Of a stretch of DNA of 35,119 nucleotides, positions 3,179 to 26,121 are shown in pieces. The notes under the pieces are model-generated. The model was not told the origin of the DNA and searched no databases. It was given only the letters and a program-made list of their open reading frames with translations. A program made the position numbers and the translations under genes. The stretch's first letter is position 1. The number at the start of each line of letters is the position of its first letter. Source of the DNA: Candidatus Rifleibacteriota bacterium (GTDB lineage: Bacteria; Muiribacteriota; Ozemobacteria; Ozemobacterales; Ozemobacteraceae); NCBI GenBank assembly GCA_012517355.1, contig JAAYVD010000054.1, positions 1-35,119 on the forward strand, in the 5' to 3' direction.

Positions 3179-3264
3179 CCGACCGACCCGATGTCGGAAG
3201 GGCTTCCCCCTTGCCGCCACGGAGGGCGGCGCGAAACGGGCGTTTCGCGCATCGCCAGGAGGCC
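3179..3264 (+). repeat. Palindromic element, copy A
   Basis: This is a copy of the ~81-bp dispersed element. It contains the first small hairpin (CCGAC/GTCGG, 3183-3187 and 3193-3197), the CCGCC-type hairpin and a perfect 9-bp hairpin GCGCGAAAC/GTTTCGCGC with a 4-nt loop. The outer closing stem is decayed at its right arm, where the sequence has become AGGAGG (3257-3262), apparently the ribosome binding site of the following hydrolase gene. Confidence 0.85.
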
Positions 3265-3272
3265 CTCCGCCG

Positions 3273-4214
3273 ATGCCCGTTGACAGGCCGCCACTGCTGC
3301 TTTTGCATGGCATCAGCAGCCGGGAGACGGTCTTCTGGCATCCCGCCCGGCAGTGCCTGGGCCGGTTCCTGGAACCCTCCTGCCGGCTGCTGACCGGCCG
3401 TCTGCGGTGGGGCCGGCCGGCCGCCGGAGGGCGGGGCGGTTCCGGGAACTGGGATTTTGATGCCCACCTGGCCGAAGATCTGCCGGCCATCTGGGCGGAA
3501 GCCTGCGCGGTGGCTGGCCGGCCCCCGGCCGTCCTCGGGTACAGCATGGGCGGCATGCTCGCGCTGCTGGCCCAGGCGCGGGGCCTGATCGCCGCCCCCG
3601 CCCTGGTGCTGCTGGCGGTGCCGGTGGCGTTTCCGGCCATTGCCTTCTACCCGCCCCTGATGCGGCGGGTCTACGACCTGGCTCGGCGGTGGGGCTGGCC
3701 GCGCATTCCCACCCGCCTCCTGGGGCGCCTGGTGATCTGGCTGTTCGCCGGGGGTCGCCCCTCCCGCATCGGCCCGGGGCTGCGCCTGTTCCACGCCCAG
3801 ATCCGCGGGGCCGGGGTCGACGTGCCTCCCGCCACGCTCGGGCAGGCCACCGCCTGGGTGGAAACCGGTCGTTTCTGCGACCGCACCGGGCGCCGGGACC
3901 TGCTGTCCGAGCTTGGCGGGGTCGCCGTTCCCGCCCTGTTCCTGGCGGGGTCGGCTGACCGGATCGCCCCGCCGGAGGTCATGCGCCGGGGCTTCGAGAC
4001 GGTCTCCTCCGCCGTCCGCAGGTTCGAGGTGATCGCCGGGGGTGACCACCTGAACCTGGTCAACGGGCCGCTGGCGGCCGAGGTGGCCATGTGGGTGACC
4101 CGCTGGCTGGACGGCCACCTCGCCTGGCGGGAAACGGGCGTTTCGAGCCGGCACCCGGGTGGGCCAGGGGGTCTTCCGACCGCGTGCCGGTCGGAGCCGC
4201 GTGGAGGAAGGTGA
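3273..4214 (+). CDS. Alpha/beta hydrolase fold protein
   Basis: This 313-residue predicted cytoplasmic hydrolase has no signal peptide. The fold signature is clear: an HG oxyanion motif (LLLLHGIS, residues 8-15), the nucleophile elbow GYSMGG with Ser91, an acid candidate D229 in a GSADRIAPP strand end, and the catalytic His H259 in GGDHLN. The substrate cannot be predicted; the region between the elbow and the acid contains a hydrophobic lid (about residues 105-160). The ATG at 3273 is chosen because AGGAGG sits 10 nt upstream and the protein then starts right before the first beta strand. The last ~29 residues (from about 285) are encoded by the inverted palindromic element copy F and are not expected of the family. 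The gene converges on the glycosyltransferase gene. Confidence 0.85.
   Translation: MPVDRPPLLLLHGISSRETVFWHPARQCLGRFLEPSCRLLTGRLRWGRPAAGGRGGSGNWDFDAHLAEDLPAIWAEACAVAGRPPAVLGYSMGGMLALLAQARGLIAAPALVLLAVPVAFPAIAFYPPLMRRVYDLARRWGWPRIPTRLLGRLVIWLFAGGRPSRIGPGLRLFHAQIRGAGVDVPPATLGQATAWVETGRFCDRTGRRDLLSELGGVAVPALFLAGSADRIAPPEVMRRGFETVSSAVRRFEVIAGGDHLNLVNGPLAAEVAMWVTRWLDGHLAWRETGVSSRHPGGPGGLPTACRSEPRGGR
4121..4195 (-). repeat. Palindromic element, copy F (inverted, diverged)
   Basis: Read on the minus strand, this matches the start of the element (ACCGGCACGCGGTCGGAAG) and its end (CGAAACGCCCGTTTC). The middle has diverged and the outer stem is lost. It overlaps the 3' end of the hydrolase gene and supplies its C-terminal residues in an antisense frame of the element. 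Confidence 0.7.
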
Positions 4215-18445: not shown

Positions 18446-18489
18446 CCAGGCACGGCGGAGCGACTCTTCCCGCCGCCCTGGAGGGGAGC

Positions 18490-20340
18490 ATGAAGGAACC
18501 CGACCGACACGACGCCGGCCATACCCCTTTGCCGCCACGGATGGCGGCGCGAAGCACCAGCTTCGCGCATCGCAAAGGGGCCGACCGACACGACGTCGGA
18601 AGTGCCCCTTTGCCGCCACGGATGGCGGCGCGAAGCACCAGCTTCGCGCATCGCAAAGGGGCCGACATTCGCCGGTTGGTCGGCCATCCGGTTTCCCGCC
18701 TGTCCGTCCTGCTGCTGGTCGCGGTTGGGCTGTGGTGGTTGACCGGGTGCGCCGGCGAGCCGCCCCCGCCCGTCGCCGTGAAGGGCCCGGTCTACGGCGG
18801 GGTCTACCGCCGGGCGTTTTCCGATGCCTTCTTGACCCTCGATCCCGCGATGGTGGCCGACACCTTCTCCCACGAGGTCTGCCGGCAGATCTTCGACTCC
18901 CTGGTGGATTTCGACGACGAGGGGAAGGTCATTCCCGCCATCGCCCGGAACTGGGAGATCAGCGACGACCGCCTGCGCTACACCCTGCATCTGCGGCCCG
19001 ACGTCCGGTTCCACGCCACCTCCGGGCCCGACGACCATCCCACCGCCAACGGAGGCCGCCTGCTGACCGCGGCGGACGTGGAATTCACCTTCCGGCGGTT
19101 GCTCGATCCCCATGCCCGGGGCCGCCACGGGGAAAACTTCTCGGTCATCCGCGGGGCCGCCGCCTATCGTTCCGGGGCCGCCCCCACCATCGAAGGCATC
19201 CGGGTGGCCGCCACCGACACGATCGAGTTCACGCTCGAGCGGCCGTTCGCGCCGTTCCTGTCGGTGCTCGTCCTCAGCAACGCCTTCATCGTTCCCCGCG
19301 AGGATGTCGAGTCCCTCGGTGAGGGATTCGCCTCCGCCCCCGTCGGGACCGGCCCCTTCCTGTGGGCGGGCAAGCAGGACGGCACCCTGCGGCTTCGCGC
19401 CAACCCCAACCATTTCCGCGGGCGGCCCTACCTCGACGCCATCGAATACCCGATCATCGAAAACGAGATGGACCGGTTCAACGCGTTCCAACGCGGGGAG
19501 CTGATGCAGACCGACGTTCCCGATCCCGAGTACAAGAACGTCAAGCAGGACCCGGTGCTGTCCGCCCATTTCCAGGAGGTGAGCCGCTGGGGGGTCAACT
19601 ATCTCGGCTTCAACGTGCGCAAGCCACCCTTCGACAACGTCAAGGTGCGGCAGGCCATCAACTACGCCATCGACCGCGAGGCCATCGTCAAGCTGATCAT
19701 CAACGACCGGGCCCGGGTGGCCCAGGGCATCCTGCCGCCCGGCATCGCGGCCTACAACCCGAAGGTGCGGGGGTATCCCTTCGACCCGGCCAGGGCGAGG
19801 AGCCTGCTGGCGGAAGCCGGATATCCCGAGGGGAAGGGGTTTCCCGAGATCACCCTGCAGTTCAACCGCGAGAAGGTCCATTCGCGGACGGCCGAGTTCA
19901 TCCTCGCCAACCTCCGCGATGTGGGCATCAACTGCAACCTGCGCGAGTCCGATTTCAAGGACCACCTGGCGGCGGTCGAGTCCGGCGAGGCAGGCTTCTT
20001 CCGCATGGGCTGGACCGTCGATTATCCCGATCCCGACGACTTCCTGTTCACCCTGTTCCATTCCTCCAACGTCGGCACCAAGGGGAACTTCAGCGGGTAT
20101 GCCAACCCCAAGGTCGACGAGATCCTGGAACGGGCCCGGTTCGAGATCGATCTCAAGACCCGCATCACCCTTTACCAGCAAGCTGAGCAGATGATCCTCG
20201 ACGACGCCCCCTGGGTGGTCGTCTTCCATTACACCACCCACGTGCTGGTGCAGCCGTCGGTCCGGGGGGTGAAACTGATGCCCCTCGGCCCCCCGTTCAT
20301 CCCTTACCGCACGATCTGGCTCGCCCCGGCCACGCCCTGA
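18490..20340 (+). CDS. Oligopeptide-type (family 5) ABC substrate-binding lipoprotein with in-frame repeat insertion
   Basis: This is a 616-residue solute-binding protein of the DppA/OppA/NikA class. Recognisable parts are GGVYRRAFSDAFLTLDP at the start of the mature domain, a LTAADVEFTFRRLLDP segment, GTGPFLWAG and VRQAINYAIDREAIV. The lipobox LTGC places the lipidated Cys at residue 87. GGAGGGGAG precedes ATG 18490 and a promoter lies upstream, so the start is well supported. Residues 5-58 are two tandem copies (27 residues each) of the palindromic element read in frame; without them the protein would begin MKEPDIRR and run straight into a normal lipoprotein signal. Internal in-frame ATGs at 18541 and 18622 lie inside the repeats but have no ribosome binding site. 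No permease or ATPase genes are adjacent. Confidence 0.9.
   Translation: MKEPDRHDAGHTPLPPRMAARSTSFAHRKGADRHDVGSAPLPPRMAARSTSFAHRKGADIRRLVGHPVSRLSVLLLVAVGLWWLTGCAGEPPPPVAVKGPVYGGVYRRAFSDAFLTLDPAMVADTFSHEVCRQIFDSLVDFDDEGKVIPAIARNWEISDDRLRYTLHLRPDVRFHATSGPDDHPTANGGRLLTAADVEFTFRRLLDPHARGRHGENFSVIRGAAAYRSGAAPTIEGIRVAATDTIEFTLERPFAPFLSVLVLSNAFIVPREDVESLGEGFASAPVGTGPFLWAGKQDGTLRLRANPNHFRGRPYLDAIEYPIIENEMDRFNAFQRGELMQTDVPDPEYKNVKQDPVLSAHFQEVSRWGVNYLGFNVRKPPFDNVKVRQAINYAIDREAIVKLIINDRARVAQGILPPGIAAYNPKVRGYPFDPARARSLLAEAGYPEGKGFPEITLQFNREKVHSRTAEFILANLRDVGINCNLRESDFKDHLAAVESGEAGFFRMGWTVDYPDPDDFLFTLFHSSNVGTKGNFSGYANPKVDEILERARFEIDLKTRITLYQQAEQMILDDAPWVVVFHYTTHVLVQPSVRGVKLMPLGPPFIPYRTIWLAPATP
18500..18580 (+). 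repeat. Palindromic element, copy B (in-frame, tandem with C)
   Basis: This 81-bp unit encodes 27 residues from DRHDAG to FAHRKGA within the binding lipoprotein. The 9-bp hairpin GCGCGAAGC/GCTTCGCGC, the CGCC/GGCG hairpin and the outer CCCCTTTGC/GCAAAGGGG stem are intact. The first small hairpin has one mismatch (CCGAC/GCCGG). Confidence 0.9.
18581..18664 (+). repeat. Palindromic element, copy C (in-frame, most intact copy)
   Basis: All parts are present: CCGAC/GTCGG hairpin, outer 10-bp stem GCCCCTTTGC (18604-18613) with GCAAAGGGGC (18653-18662), inner CGCC/GGCG hairpin (18614-18627) and inner 9-bp hairpin (18628-18636 with 18641-18649, loop ACCA). It differs from copy B only in a few bases near the first hairpin. 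Confidence 0.92.
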
Positions 20341-20535: not shown

Positions 20536-22209
20536 TCACAGGGTGAACTTGCGGTAGCGGGCGCGGCGGTTCTCGTAGGCCGCCTGGCCGAGCTTCTTCA
20601 GCCGGATCCGCTCGTATTCCTCGTAGTTCCCCTCGAACCACTGGACGTGGGATTCGCCCTCGAAGACGAGCAGGTGGGTGCAGACCCGGTTGAGGAAGAA
20701 CCGGTCGTGGCTGATCACCATGATGCAGCCGCTGAAATCCTGGATGGCGTCCTCGAGGAGGCGCAGCGTGCCGACGTCGAGGTCGTTGGTCGGTTCGTCG
20801 AGCAGGATCAGGTTGGCCCCCGACTTCAGGATCTTGGCCAGGTGCACCCGGTTGCGCTCGCCGCCGGACAGGTCGCGGACCAGCTTCTGCTGGTCGGTGC
20901 CGCGGAAGCCGAACCGGCCGCAGTAGGCGCGGGCCGGGATCTTCTGCTTGCCGAAGGGGATGTCGGCCTTGCCGTCGCTGATCTCGTCGAACACGGTCTT
21001 TTCGTCGGTCAGCACGTCGCGGTGCTGATCGACCCAGGCCATCTGCACCGTGGGGCCGACGGCGATCTCGCCCCCGTCCGGCTTCTCCTTCCCGGCGATC
21101 ATCTTGAACAGGGTGGTCTTGCCGGTGCCGTTGGGGCCGATGATGCCCACCACCGCTCCCTTGGGGAGGTTGAAGGTCAGGTCCTTGATCAGGACGTTGC
21201 CGTCGAACCCCTTGGTCAGGTTCTTCGCTTCGACCACCTTGTCGCCGAGCGGGGTGGCGGGGGCGATCTGGATGACGTTCGCCTCGGGGTTGCTCTCCGC
21301 CGACTCGCGGGCCACCAGCTGTTCGTATTCCTTGATGCGGGCGGCGCTCAGATCGTGCCGGTCCTTGGCGCTCATCCGGATCCACTTCAGTTCGCGCTCG
21401 AGGGAACGGCGGCGGGCCGATTCCTTCTTTTCCTGCTGGGCGAGGCGTTCCAGTTTCTGCCCCAGCCACGAGGTGTAATTGCCCTCGAACGGGACGCCGT
21501 GGCCCTGGTCCAGTTCCAGGATCCACTTGGTGATGTTGTCGAGGAAGTAGCGGTCGTGGGTCGAGATCAGCACGGTGCCGGGGTAGTTCTTCAGGTAGTT
21601 TTCCAGCCAGTCGATCGTCTCGGCGTCGAGGTGGTTGGTCGGCTCGTCCAGCAGCAGCAGGTCGGGCTGTTCGAGGAAGGCGCGGCACAGGGCCACGCGG
21701 CGCTTCTCACCGCCCGACAGCGTGTCGACCACCGCGTCGTCCGGGGGCAGCACGAGGGCGTTGGCGGCCACCTTCATCTTGGTGTCGATCTCCCACCCGC
21801 CGGCCGCGTCGATCTTCTCCTGGAGCACGGTCATGCGCTCCATCGCCTTGTCCAGGGCGTCCCCTTCCAGGTCGCCCATGCGGTTGGTGATGTCTTCATA
21901 TTCGGTCACCAGGGCCAGGGTGTCGGCGAACGCCCCTTCGAGGATCTCCCTGACGGTCTTGCCATCCTCCAGCCGGGGTTCCTGCGGAACCATCCCCACG
22001 CGCACGCCCTTGGCAGGTTCGGCGGTGCCGACGAAATCCTTGTCGATGCCGGCCATGATGCGCAGCACGGTCGACTTGCCCGCGCCGTTCTCGCCGACGA
22101 TGCCGATCTTCGCGCCCGGGAAGAAACACAACCCGATGTCCTTCAGGATCTGTTTCTGACCGTAGAATTTGTTCAGCCCCAGCATCGTGAAGATATACTG
22201 TTCCGCCAT
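20536..22209 (-). CDS. ettA: ABC-F protein EttA (energy-dependent translational throttle)
   Basis: The 557-residue protein has two ABC ATPase domains and no membrane segments. Domain 1 has Walker A GENGAGKST (residues 39-47), signature LSGGEKRR and Walker B LLLLDEPTNHLD. A charged linker (QQEKKESARRRSLERELKWIRMS) follows, and domain 2 has GPNGTGKTT, LSGGERNR and LILLDEPTNDLD. Length and the YIFTMLGLNKFYGQKQIL start match EttA, which binds the ribosomal E site and gates the first elongation step according to ATP/ADP ratio. ATG 22209 is preceded by GGAG with good spacing; an in-frame upstream ATG at 22233 would add eight residues. It is transcribed from its own promoter at 22264-22292. Confidence 0.95.
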   Translation of the reverse strand: MAEQYIFTMLGLNKFYGQKQILKDIGLCFFPGAKIGIVGENGAGKSTVLRIMAGIDKDFVGTAEPAKGVRVGMVPQEPRLEDGKTVREILEGAFADTLALVTEYEDITNRMGDLEGDALDKAMERMTVLQEKIDAAGGWEIDTKMKVAANALVLPPDDAVVDTLSGGEKRRVALCRAFLEQPDLLLLDEPTNHLDAETIDWLENYLKNYPGTVLISTHDRYFLDNITKWILELDQGHGVPFEGNYTSWLGQKLERLAQQEKKESARRRSLERELKWIRMSAKDRHDLSAARIKEYEQLVARESAESNPEANVIQIAPATPLGDKVVEAKNLTKGFDGNVLIKDLTFNLPKGAVVGIIGPNGTGKTTLFKMIAGKEKPDGGEIAVGPTVQMAWVDQHRDVLTDEKTVFDEISDGKADIPFGKQKIPARAYCGRFGFRGTDQQKLVRDLSGGERNRVHLAKILKSGANLILLDEPTNDLDVGTLRLLEDAIQDFSGCIMVISHDRFFLNRVCTHLLVFEGESHVQWFEGNYEEYERIRLKKLGQAAYENRRARYRKFTL

Positions 22210-22263
22210 GTCCTTCTCCTCTGGTGCGGGCATCGCCCGGGATCCGCGTCATTCGCGGCGGCC

Positions 22264-22305: not shown

Positions 22306-22387
22306 CCGACCGACACGATGTCGGCCATACCCCTTTGCCGCCAGGGACGGCGGCGCGAAACGCCCGTTTCGCGCATCGCAAAGGGGC
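22306..22387 (+). repeat. Palindromic element, copy D (intergenic)
   Basis: This copy is intact and lies between the thioredoxin-reductase-like gene and the ettA promoter. It carries CCGAC/GTCGG, the outer CCCCTTTGC/GCAAAGGGG stem, CCGCC/GGCGG, and a 9-bp hairpin GCGCGAAAC/GTTTCGCGC. The last differs from copies B and C by a paired G-C to A-T change. The same reading frame that is used in copies B and C is also open here although no gene spans it. Confidence 0.9.
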
Positions 22388-22498
22388 CGTTCCGGCCGGC
22401 CGCGTTCAGGGGGCCACAGGCGAGGCGGCGGACCGGGACCTTCGCCGGTGGCCCGGGTTCAGCCGGCATTGGGTCAGCCGGGCGGGGCCCCGCCCCCG

Positions 22499-24825: not shown

Positions 24826-26121
24826 ATGTTGACGATGATGCCGATCCAGGGTGACCTGCAGGTGCTGGGGCTGATGAGCGGGACGTCGGGCGACGGGATC
24901 GACGGCGCCCTCGTCCGGTTCGGGGCGGACGGCGGGTTCCGCCTTCTCTGGCACGATTCCTGGCCCTTCCCCGCCGCCGTGCGGTCACGCCTGCAAGGCT
25001 TGATGGCCGCTGCCACGGCGCGCGAGGTCCTCCAGGCGGGAACCTGGGTGGCCGGCCTCTACGCCGAGGCGGTCGCGGCCTTCCGCCGCCGGCACCGCCA
25101 GCCGGTCGACCTGCTGGCCGCCCATGGCCAGACCCTCGATCACGATCCTTCCGACCAGAGCTGGGACGGCATTCCGGTCCGCGGATCCCTCCAGGTGCTC
25201 GATGCCTCCTTCCTGGCCGAACGGTCCGGCCTGCCGGTCGTCTACGACTTTCGCCGCCGCGACATGGCGGTCGGCGGTCAGGGGGCTCCTCTGGTGCCGT
25301 TCGGCGACCTGCGGTTCTTCGGCGGCGCCTGTCGCCGCGGGCTGGTGGTCCTGAATGTCGGGGGGATCGCCAACGTCACCGTCATCCGTGGCGGCCGCGT
25401 TCCCCGGGTCACCGCGGCGTTCGACACCGGTCCCGGCAACATGCTCATGGACGCCCTGGCCGAGCGGCTGACCGGGGGAAAACAGACCTACGACGCGGGC
25501 GGCCGCCTGGCCGCCGCCGGCACCACCTCGCCCCGACTCCTGGCGACCCTGCTGCGCGACCCCTATCTGGCCGTGGACCCGCCCAAGTCCACCGGCCGCG
25601 ACCTCTACGGCCGGGCCCGGGAGGCGAAGCTGTGGCGCGCCTGGGGCGGGAAGCTGGCCACCACCGACCTGATGTCCACCTTCCTCGACTTCACCGTGGA
25701 GACCATCGCCCTGGCCATCGAGCGGTTCGTCCTTCCCGCCGGCCCGGTCGACGAGACGGTCATCGCCGGGGGTGGGGCCCTCAATCCCGAGCTCGTCTGC
25801 CGCCTGGCCCGCCGGTTGGAGAGCCGTTGCCGGCTGCGGACGTCCGACGCTTTGGGGGTTCCGGTCATGGCCCGCGAAGCAATGGCCTTTGCCGCCCTCG
25901 GCGATGCCTTTGCCCGCGGCCTTCCCGCCAACGTGCCGGTGGCCACCGGGGCGGCCCGGCCGGTTCTCCTCGGCTGCCTGGCGCCGTCTTCCCCCCCGAC
26001 CGGCACGAGGTCGGAAGGGCTTCCCCCTTCCCGCCACGGAGGACGTCGCGAAACCCCCGTCTTCCGCCTCGCCAGGGGGGCGACCTCCAGGCATCCGCGA
26101 CCAACCCCGAAGGGCAGGTGA
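24826..26121 (+). CDS. anmK: Anhydro-N-acetylmuramic acid kinase with repeat-derived tail
   Basis: This 431-residue sugar kinase phosphorylates and opens anhydro-MurNAc to MurNAc-6-phosphate in peptidoglycan recycling. Visible family motifs are the ATP-binding GLMSGTSGDGIDGALV (15-30), AAHGQTLDHDP, NVGGIANVTVI, FDTGPGNMLMDAL and the C-terminal GGGALNPEL. The ATG at 24826 follows GGGGAAAG and begins shortly before the first strand; upstream frame from 24721 is open but has no supporting signal. The catalytic fold ends near ARPVLLGCL; the remaining ~42 residues come from palindromic element copy E and its flank and are Arg/Pro-rich, unlike AnmK proteins. It is divergent from recA; the rest of the recycling pathway is not nearby. 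Confidence 0.94.
   Translation: MLTMMPIQGDLQVLGLMSGTSGDGIDGALVRFGADGGFRLLWHDSWPFPAAVRSRLQGLMAAATAREVLQAGTWVAGLYAEAVAAFRRRHRQPVDLLAAHGQTLDHDPSDQSWDGIPVRGSLQVLDASFLAERSGLPVVYDFRRRDMAVGGQGAPLVPFGDLRFFGGACRRGLVVLNVGGIANVTVIRGGRVPRVTAAFDTGPGNMLMDALAERLTGGKQTYDAGGRLAAAGTTSPRLLATLLRDPYLAVDPPKSTGRDLYGRAREAKLWRAWGGKLATTDLMSTFLDFTVETIALAIERFVLPAGPVDETVIAGGGALNPELVCRLARRLESRCRLRTSDALGVPVMAREAMAFAALGDAFARGLPANVPVATGAARPVLLGCLAPSSPPTGTRSEGLPPSRHGGRRETPVFRLARGATSRHPRPTPKGR
25996..26080 (+). repeat. Palindromic element, copy E (3' end of anmK)
   Basis: The copy starts CCGACCGGCACGAGGTCGG and continues through CCCCCTTCCCGCCACGGAGG to GCGAAACCCCCGT and CGCCAGGGGGG. The stems are partly decayed. It is read in a different frame from copies B and C and supplies the AnmK C-terminal tail. 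Confidence 0.8.

Follow-up and report, generated by a model that had tools for sequence, protein, structure and literature searches.

Two 81-bp palindromic units stand in frame directly behind the first codons of a substrate-binding lipoprotein gene in the window, the 35,119-nt stretch of DNA analysed here, one of the 184 contigs (C128) of a 7.1-Mb assembly. Sequence comparisons make it probable that a mobile palindrome resembling the Rickettsia palindromic elements (RPEs) and tolerated in coding sequence was inserted behind the ancestral start codon at 18490, and that the residues it contributes are removed along with the signal peptide.

A lipoprotein gene with two inserted units

The features of the gene and its 5' end are as follows.

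18480..18484, + strand: Shine-Dalgarno (SD) sequence GGAGG, 5 nt before the ATG at 18490, from the sequence, its context kept in the congeneric genomes G001 and G002
18490..20340, + strand: gene for an SBP_bac_5 (oligopeptide-type) substrate-binding lipoprotein of 616 aa (Pfam PF00496, 5.3e-87)
18490..18501, + strand: start codon and first codons ATGAAGGAACCC (MKEP), homologous to ATGGACGAATGG (MDEW) in both congeners
18502..18582, + strand: palindromic unit 1, 81 bp, encoding DRHDAGHTPLPPRMAARSTSFAHRKGA; direct repeat and family member, lacking in orthologs
18583..18663, + strand: palindromic unit 2, 81 bp, encoding DRHDVGSAPLPPRMAARSTSFAHRKGA; direct repeat and family member, lacking in orthologs
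18700..18750, + strand: predicted signal h-region and lipobox LSVLLLVAVGLWWLTGC with Cys87, from the translation and alignment with ortholog signals

The gene begins with GGAGG-GGAGC-ATG-AAG-GAA-CCC, followed by the two units, GAC ATT CGC CGG and the signal up to LTGC, and the reading frame is unbroken through both units up to 20340. Residue 87 (codon 18748-18750) is the Cys of LTGC, and the protein thus has the arrangement expected of a bacterial lipoprotein, an h-region followed by a lipobox Cys. The units together insert 54 residues N-terminal to the lipoprotein signal, and 70 residues precede the h-region LSVLLLV. The preliminary description had placed the units in frame directly after ATGAAGGAACCC with a period of exactly 81 bp, which the coordinates above confirm. 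It had also proposed that their excision would leave MKEPDIRR and a normal signal, and joining the flanks indeed yields MKEPDIRRLVGHPVSRLSVLLLV. A two-unit query against this genome returned 44 matches (best 2.3e-81), and folding against shuffles gave z = -4.8 for unit 1 and z = -6.4 for unit 2; the repeats are therefore not due to chance. The named records nearest to the lipoprotein are from metagenome-assembled Candidatus Ozemobacteraceae / Riflebacteria.

The orthologs in the two congeners are syntenic. Gene order around the lipoprotein gene is conserved over seven genes, this gene included, in the G001 stretch and over five in the G002 stretch. Proteins of the shared neighbourhood are 66-93% identical between the window and the congeners, with 78-79% for the lipoprotein. 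Both congeneric genes start with GGAGGA.GAGC-ATG-GAC-GAA-TGG (N-termini MDEWRWPRWVAFPMLVGLLVQLAGC and MDEWRWRWGAALPILVCLVLLATGC); the context GGAGG..GAGC-ATG of the ribosome-binding site and start codon is common to all three genes, and the congeners are without the insert. From Met to the lipobox Cys, both congeners have 25 residues, further members of the family that were compared have 19-29, and the gene in the window has 87. Since the orthologs lack it, the 162-bp stretch that follows the opening codons of the ancestral frame is, on this alignment evidence, a derived insertion; a comparison with sister genomes for these 162 bp had been suggested beforehand, and both syntenic orthologs proved to be without them. 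The few related elements found elsewhere in G002 indicate that the family is older than this species, as would be expected if the insert were ancestral and had been lost in the congeners. This is extremely improbable, because the orthologs compared across the family have short signals and an ancestral insert would need several independent, precise losses.

Translation most likely starts at 18490, judging from the start region itself: this is the only start with an SD sequence and it is homologous to the start in the congeners, while ATG 18541, ATG 18622 and TTG 18676 have none. We considered whether the elements are instead untranslated 5' sequence acting only as mRNA structure, with the start within or after unit 2 (ATG 18622 or TTG 18676). 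Initiation at ATG 18622 would give a signal peptide of ordinary length (MAARSTSFAHRKGADIRRLVGHPVSRLSVLLLV), and our codon model chose this start. Annotation errors are also a known cause of N-terminal REPs in other species, and the authors of that work caution that such REPs are often extragenic (PMC3733652). Misannotation is unlikely for the gene in the window, however, because its ribosome-binding site and start codon (18480-18492) are conserved with the congeners. ATG 18622 lies inside a unit hairpin; moreover, at 13 other loci there is no ATG, GTG or TTG from the element to the hydrophobic segment, and in-frame copies in the middle of genes would be left unexplained. We thus regard an untranslated 5' location as unlikely.

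We propose the following course for an insertion behind the ancestral start. A non-autonomous palindrome, presumably mobile, would have multiplied in this Riflebacteria lineage until it reached about 1,000 copies, and one unit would have entered behind the start codon of the lipoprotein gene after the split from the congeners. The second unit was probably added by tandem duplication, because the two are 0.935 identical as compared with 0.72 for random pairs in the family. Genome-wide, neighbouring copies are mostly only slightly more alike than random pairs, so that repeated insertion beside an existing copy may also occur. With translation from the ancestral ATG, as SD sequence and homology indicate, the 54 extra Arg/Pro-rich residues would lengthen the cytoplasmic n-region. 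Lipoprotein processing by signal peptidase II is established, and a cut before Cys87 would discard the extra residues, which are probably lost together with the signal peptide. The mature lipoprotein would then be unchanged and the insertion tolerated as nearly neutral. On the other hand, strong hairpins just behind the start codon could reduce translation, and this counts against our explanation.

The repeat family and its spread

We surveyed 1.03 Mb of the genome, 700 kb of which was picked without regard to repeats. By iterated profile search the 1.03 Mb yielded 198 copies; the unselected 700 kb contains 98 copies in 79 arrays, and extrapolation gives about 1,000 copies of the 81-bp element per genome. 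The mean identity of copies to the consensus is 81%. In 340 kb of G001 the profile finds 0 copies, and self-comparison of that sequence reveals no comparable repeat family. G002 has a few diverged relatives, and the other searched genomes of the phylum gave no match to the element. One G002 relative (L156:1-160, contig C204) is a 60-bp tandem unit that has the head hairpin CCGACACGAGGTCGGAAGTG in common with the element and a different palindromic body. Such a unit suggests, at the level of sequence, that the family is modular.

On either strand the unit folds into a head hairpin, CCGAC-N5-GTCGG, and, after this, an outer stem around two hairpins. Although the palindrome is conserved, we do not claim selection for RNA structure because stem covariation is weak (1 compensatory pair by RNAalifold; 4 pairs for the named structure versus 3.7 in shuffles). 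The element has no match in Rfam at gathering score, the mir-3180 hits with E about 1 being chance. Its left end is CCGACC within the conserved CCGACCGACACGA, and arrays end on the right with CCG-N-CC in most copies, which resembles a short direct repeat. A search for a target-site duplication at the element ends yielded none that could be fixed at this copy divergence. Read on the opposite strand, the head hairpin contains CGTC. The commonest tandem spacing genome-wide is 81 bp (21/56, the remainder 58-92), so a multiple of 3 is not special at the lipoprotein gene. This qualifies the earlier reading of 81 bp as 27 codons, whose exact period stands. A coding explanation for the exact period was dropped, as multiples of 3 are not clearly commoner among intragenic spacings (5/9) than among the others (22/47).

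The consensus contains zero stops in all six frames, a property expected in 2-4% of shuffled or random sequences and in 20% of random palindromes. Together with the usual unit length of 81 bp, this openness allows translation to continue across such insertions. Among well-scoring intergenic copies, 76/95 are open in all six frames. Stop-creating substitutions numbered 77 against 143 expected for matched type and pairing state (permutation p = 0.0003), a reduction to roughly half, and across the genome intergenic copies show this depletion too, counting stops in any frame. We take it as suggestive only, because the number of sites is small and they may overlap with other constraints.

The further copies in the window, and a transposase gene elsewhere in the genome, are listed here.

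3179..3262, + strand: element copy just upstream of the hydrolase-like gene 3273-4214 (window repeat comparison, family census)
4118..4191, - strand: element copy at the 3' end of gene 3273-4214 (family census)
22309..22389, + strand: intergenic element copy upstream of the ABC-ATPase gene 20536-22233(-) (repeat comparison, census)
25999..26078, + strand: element copy in frame near the 3' end of gene 24835-26121 (repeat comparison, census)
L161:4057-4848, - strand: single-copy gene for a tyrosine transposase of the REP-associated type, with its own inverted flanks GTTCCGGGGACATGATACCGAA

The hydrolase-like gene thus has an element at both ends, in opposite orientations. For gene 24835-26121, the alignment with the G001 ortholog ends at residue 386 of 428, and the copy at 25999-26078 seems from this alignment to provide a C-terminal extension. 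A separate repeat lies at the contig start (1-182), where a 13-bp tandem unit CAGAGGGCGAGGA occurs in about 10 copies or more just upstream of a polA-like gene.

The transposase gene, on contig C109 of this genome, is Y1_Tnp / REP_Tyr_transpos-like at 64.4 bits, below the 80-bit cut-off. It is the sole Y1 gene, and the 9 kb around it contains no element copy. Its presence in this genome and in G002, and its absence from G001, is a suggestive distribution as far as gene content goes. Mobilisation by a REP-associated transposase (RAYT) is nevertheless not supported, because the gene is without a nearby element copy and is flanked by its own inverted sequence.

Copies inside genes and before export signals

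In the unselected 700 kb, 17/79 arrays lie inside predicted genes with the frame unbroken. At a gene coverage of 86.5%, genes are therefore avoided about fourfold, yet they are often hit. Extrapolation gives about 170 intragenic arrays per genome, an approximate count because genes were predicted with a simple codon model. The intragenic copies occur in both orientations and in several reading frames. Insertions in frame that are absent from orthologs were found in AroE, NadB, an ATP-grasp protein (at two sites) and YdjC as well as in the lipoprotein of the window. AroE orthologs each have a 41-residue gap at the element, and the gaps at the two ATP-grasp sites are 66 and 26 residues. NadB orthologs show several gaps of about 95-100 residues in sum, where three degenerate tandem units are recognisable, and YdjC orthologs miss about 30 residues in scattered gaps. 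These cases bear out the parallel with Rickettsia drawn in the preliminary description.

At the element positions of DegT, a glycosyltransferase and a TPR protein, orthologs carry unrelated sequence; these are therefore tolerant sites and not clean empty ones. DegT was excluded as an empty-site case because its orthologs have other inserts in the same loop, the one in G002 being longer. In this DegT-type aminotransferase (L117:4944-6230; L182, L186) a single loop thus holds the element here and unrelated inserts in both sisters. One Pfam match each spans the element in DegT and YdjC.

Of the arrays located close to gene 5' ends or right at them, 22/31 lie ahead of a hydrophobic export or anchor segment, compared with 232/571 background genes that have such a segment (Fisher p = 0.0009), with the hydrophobicity rule and gene starts behind this enrichment being crude. 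In 13/22 of these loci the interval between element and hydrophobic segment is free of ATG, GTG and TTG. This arrangement is illustrated by MNRRPAPPP-[unit]-GPSRALLLLAFVLALAAAFCSG (ortholog MNRHSLLHSLAFWLAFAGLSSLA), by MTRP-[three units]-AVLVILLLSGWW and by MN-[unit]-DPLPVPLAILFLAWLG. In the latter two genes the G001 and G002 orthologs show n-regions of their own, about 50-95 residues long and unrelated. These sister-species n-regions (L257, L258, L263, L264, L249) are Arg/Pro-rich and contain no recognisable element. Long variable n-regions in the genus therefore do not require the element, which is one way of making them. The preliminary description had called an n-region of about 70 residues abnormal; the length is correct, and the abnormality was overstated, as such lengths are not aberrant for the genus. 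Arrays were also seen directly before the prepilin-like leaders GFSLVEILVA, GVTIVEVLMA, GLTFVELLVA and AFTLVEIMIA (contig C34 near 62575, 81108 and 100483, that is L097, L098 and L099; L133:15657-15718).

The enrichment ahead of hydrophobic N-terminal segments, the strongly conserved fold and the depletion of stop-creating substitutions, intergenic copies included, might be read as signs of a selected regulatory or protein element whose RNA junctions or basic peptide tune the expression or export of many envelope proteins. Such selection is very unlikely: copies of this family also lie in the middle of cytoplasmic enzymes, inserted in either orientation and in several reading frames, and the congeners, which have the same genes, have next to no copies. 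The position can be explained without a function by retention where extra residues are harmless. As a broader and tentative possibility, which we hold to be doubtful, a mobile palindrome may have been kept readable in all six frames by repeated passage of its lineage through genes, with segments that are cut off after export, such as signal-peptide and prepilin n-regions, serving as a safe harbour and the element as one source of the hypervariable n-regions of the genus.

Relation to known palindromic elements

In-frame palindromes as a kind are already known from Rickettsia RPEs, REP-rich genomes and MITE-like elements of enterobacteria and Neisseria. RPEs are dispersed stem-loop palindromes found between genes and fused in frame in conserved protein genes (PMC2229807). 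The element described here is likewise dispersed between genes and in frame inside conserved genes, and it has the marks of this kind, a multi-copy palindrome in one lineage with in-frame inserts missing in orthologs. The likeness is one of description: phylum and GC content differ, and RPEs measure 105-146 bp as compared with 81 bp. Unlike RPEs, the element forms frequent tandem arrays, has a far higher copy number and stands in unusual proportion before signal sequences.

GTAG- and CGTC-tagged REPs are short, high-copy palindromes, some within ORFs and often in dimers or groups (PMC3733652). In copy number, partly intragenic location and grouping they resemble the present element, but they are 20-40 bp with one hairpin whereas the 81-bp unit has three. 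They also differ in their link to RAYTs, since no copy of the element flanks the Y1 transposase gene found here. ERIC/RU-1, RU-2, RU-3 and the 107-bp Correia element have open frames that are fused in frame to genes, and RU-2 makes up part of a signal peptide (PMC2229807, PMC2759123). RU-2 itself supplies the signal peptide, whereas the element here precedes it; these MITE-like repeats are bounded by terminal inverted repeats and, in many cases, a target-site duplication, and neither could be made out at the ends of the element here. PARCELs are palindromic DNA units that encode 25 residues and form tandem arrays in ORFs that include lipoproteins (PMC2996958). Tandem palindromic units coding for about 25 residues (27 here), with lipoproteins among their hosts, are common to both. 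PARCELs, however, make up a conserved domain of amphipathic repeats, and the ORFs that carry it have no assigned function, while a single DNA family is found here in several frames and both orientations, inserted in ordinary genes.

A search of the open-access literature returned no description of this palindrome family. As far as that literature shows, the family, its phylum, its numbers, its six-frame openness and its position before signals are new. Palindromic insertion in frame is otherwise a matter mainly of Rickettsia, with fewer cases in some REP-rich and enterobacterial genomes, and is seen here in another phylum, in a genome rich in GC. With about 170 intragenic arrays by extrapolation and empty sites in sister genomes, the tolerance of proteins for new segments becomes directly measurable. 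The finding also points to sequence cut away after export as a favoured refuge for mobile DNA.
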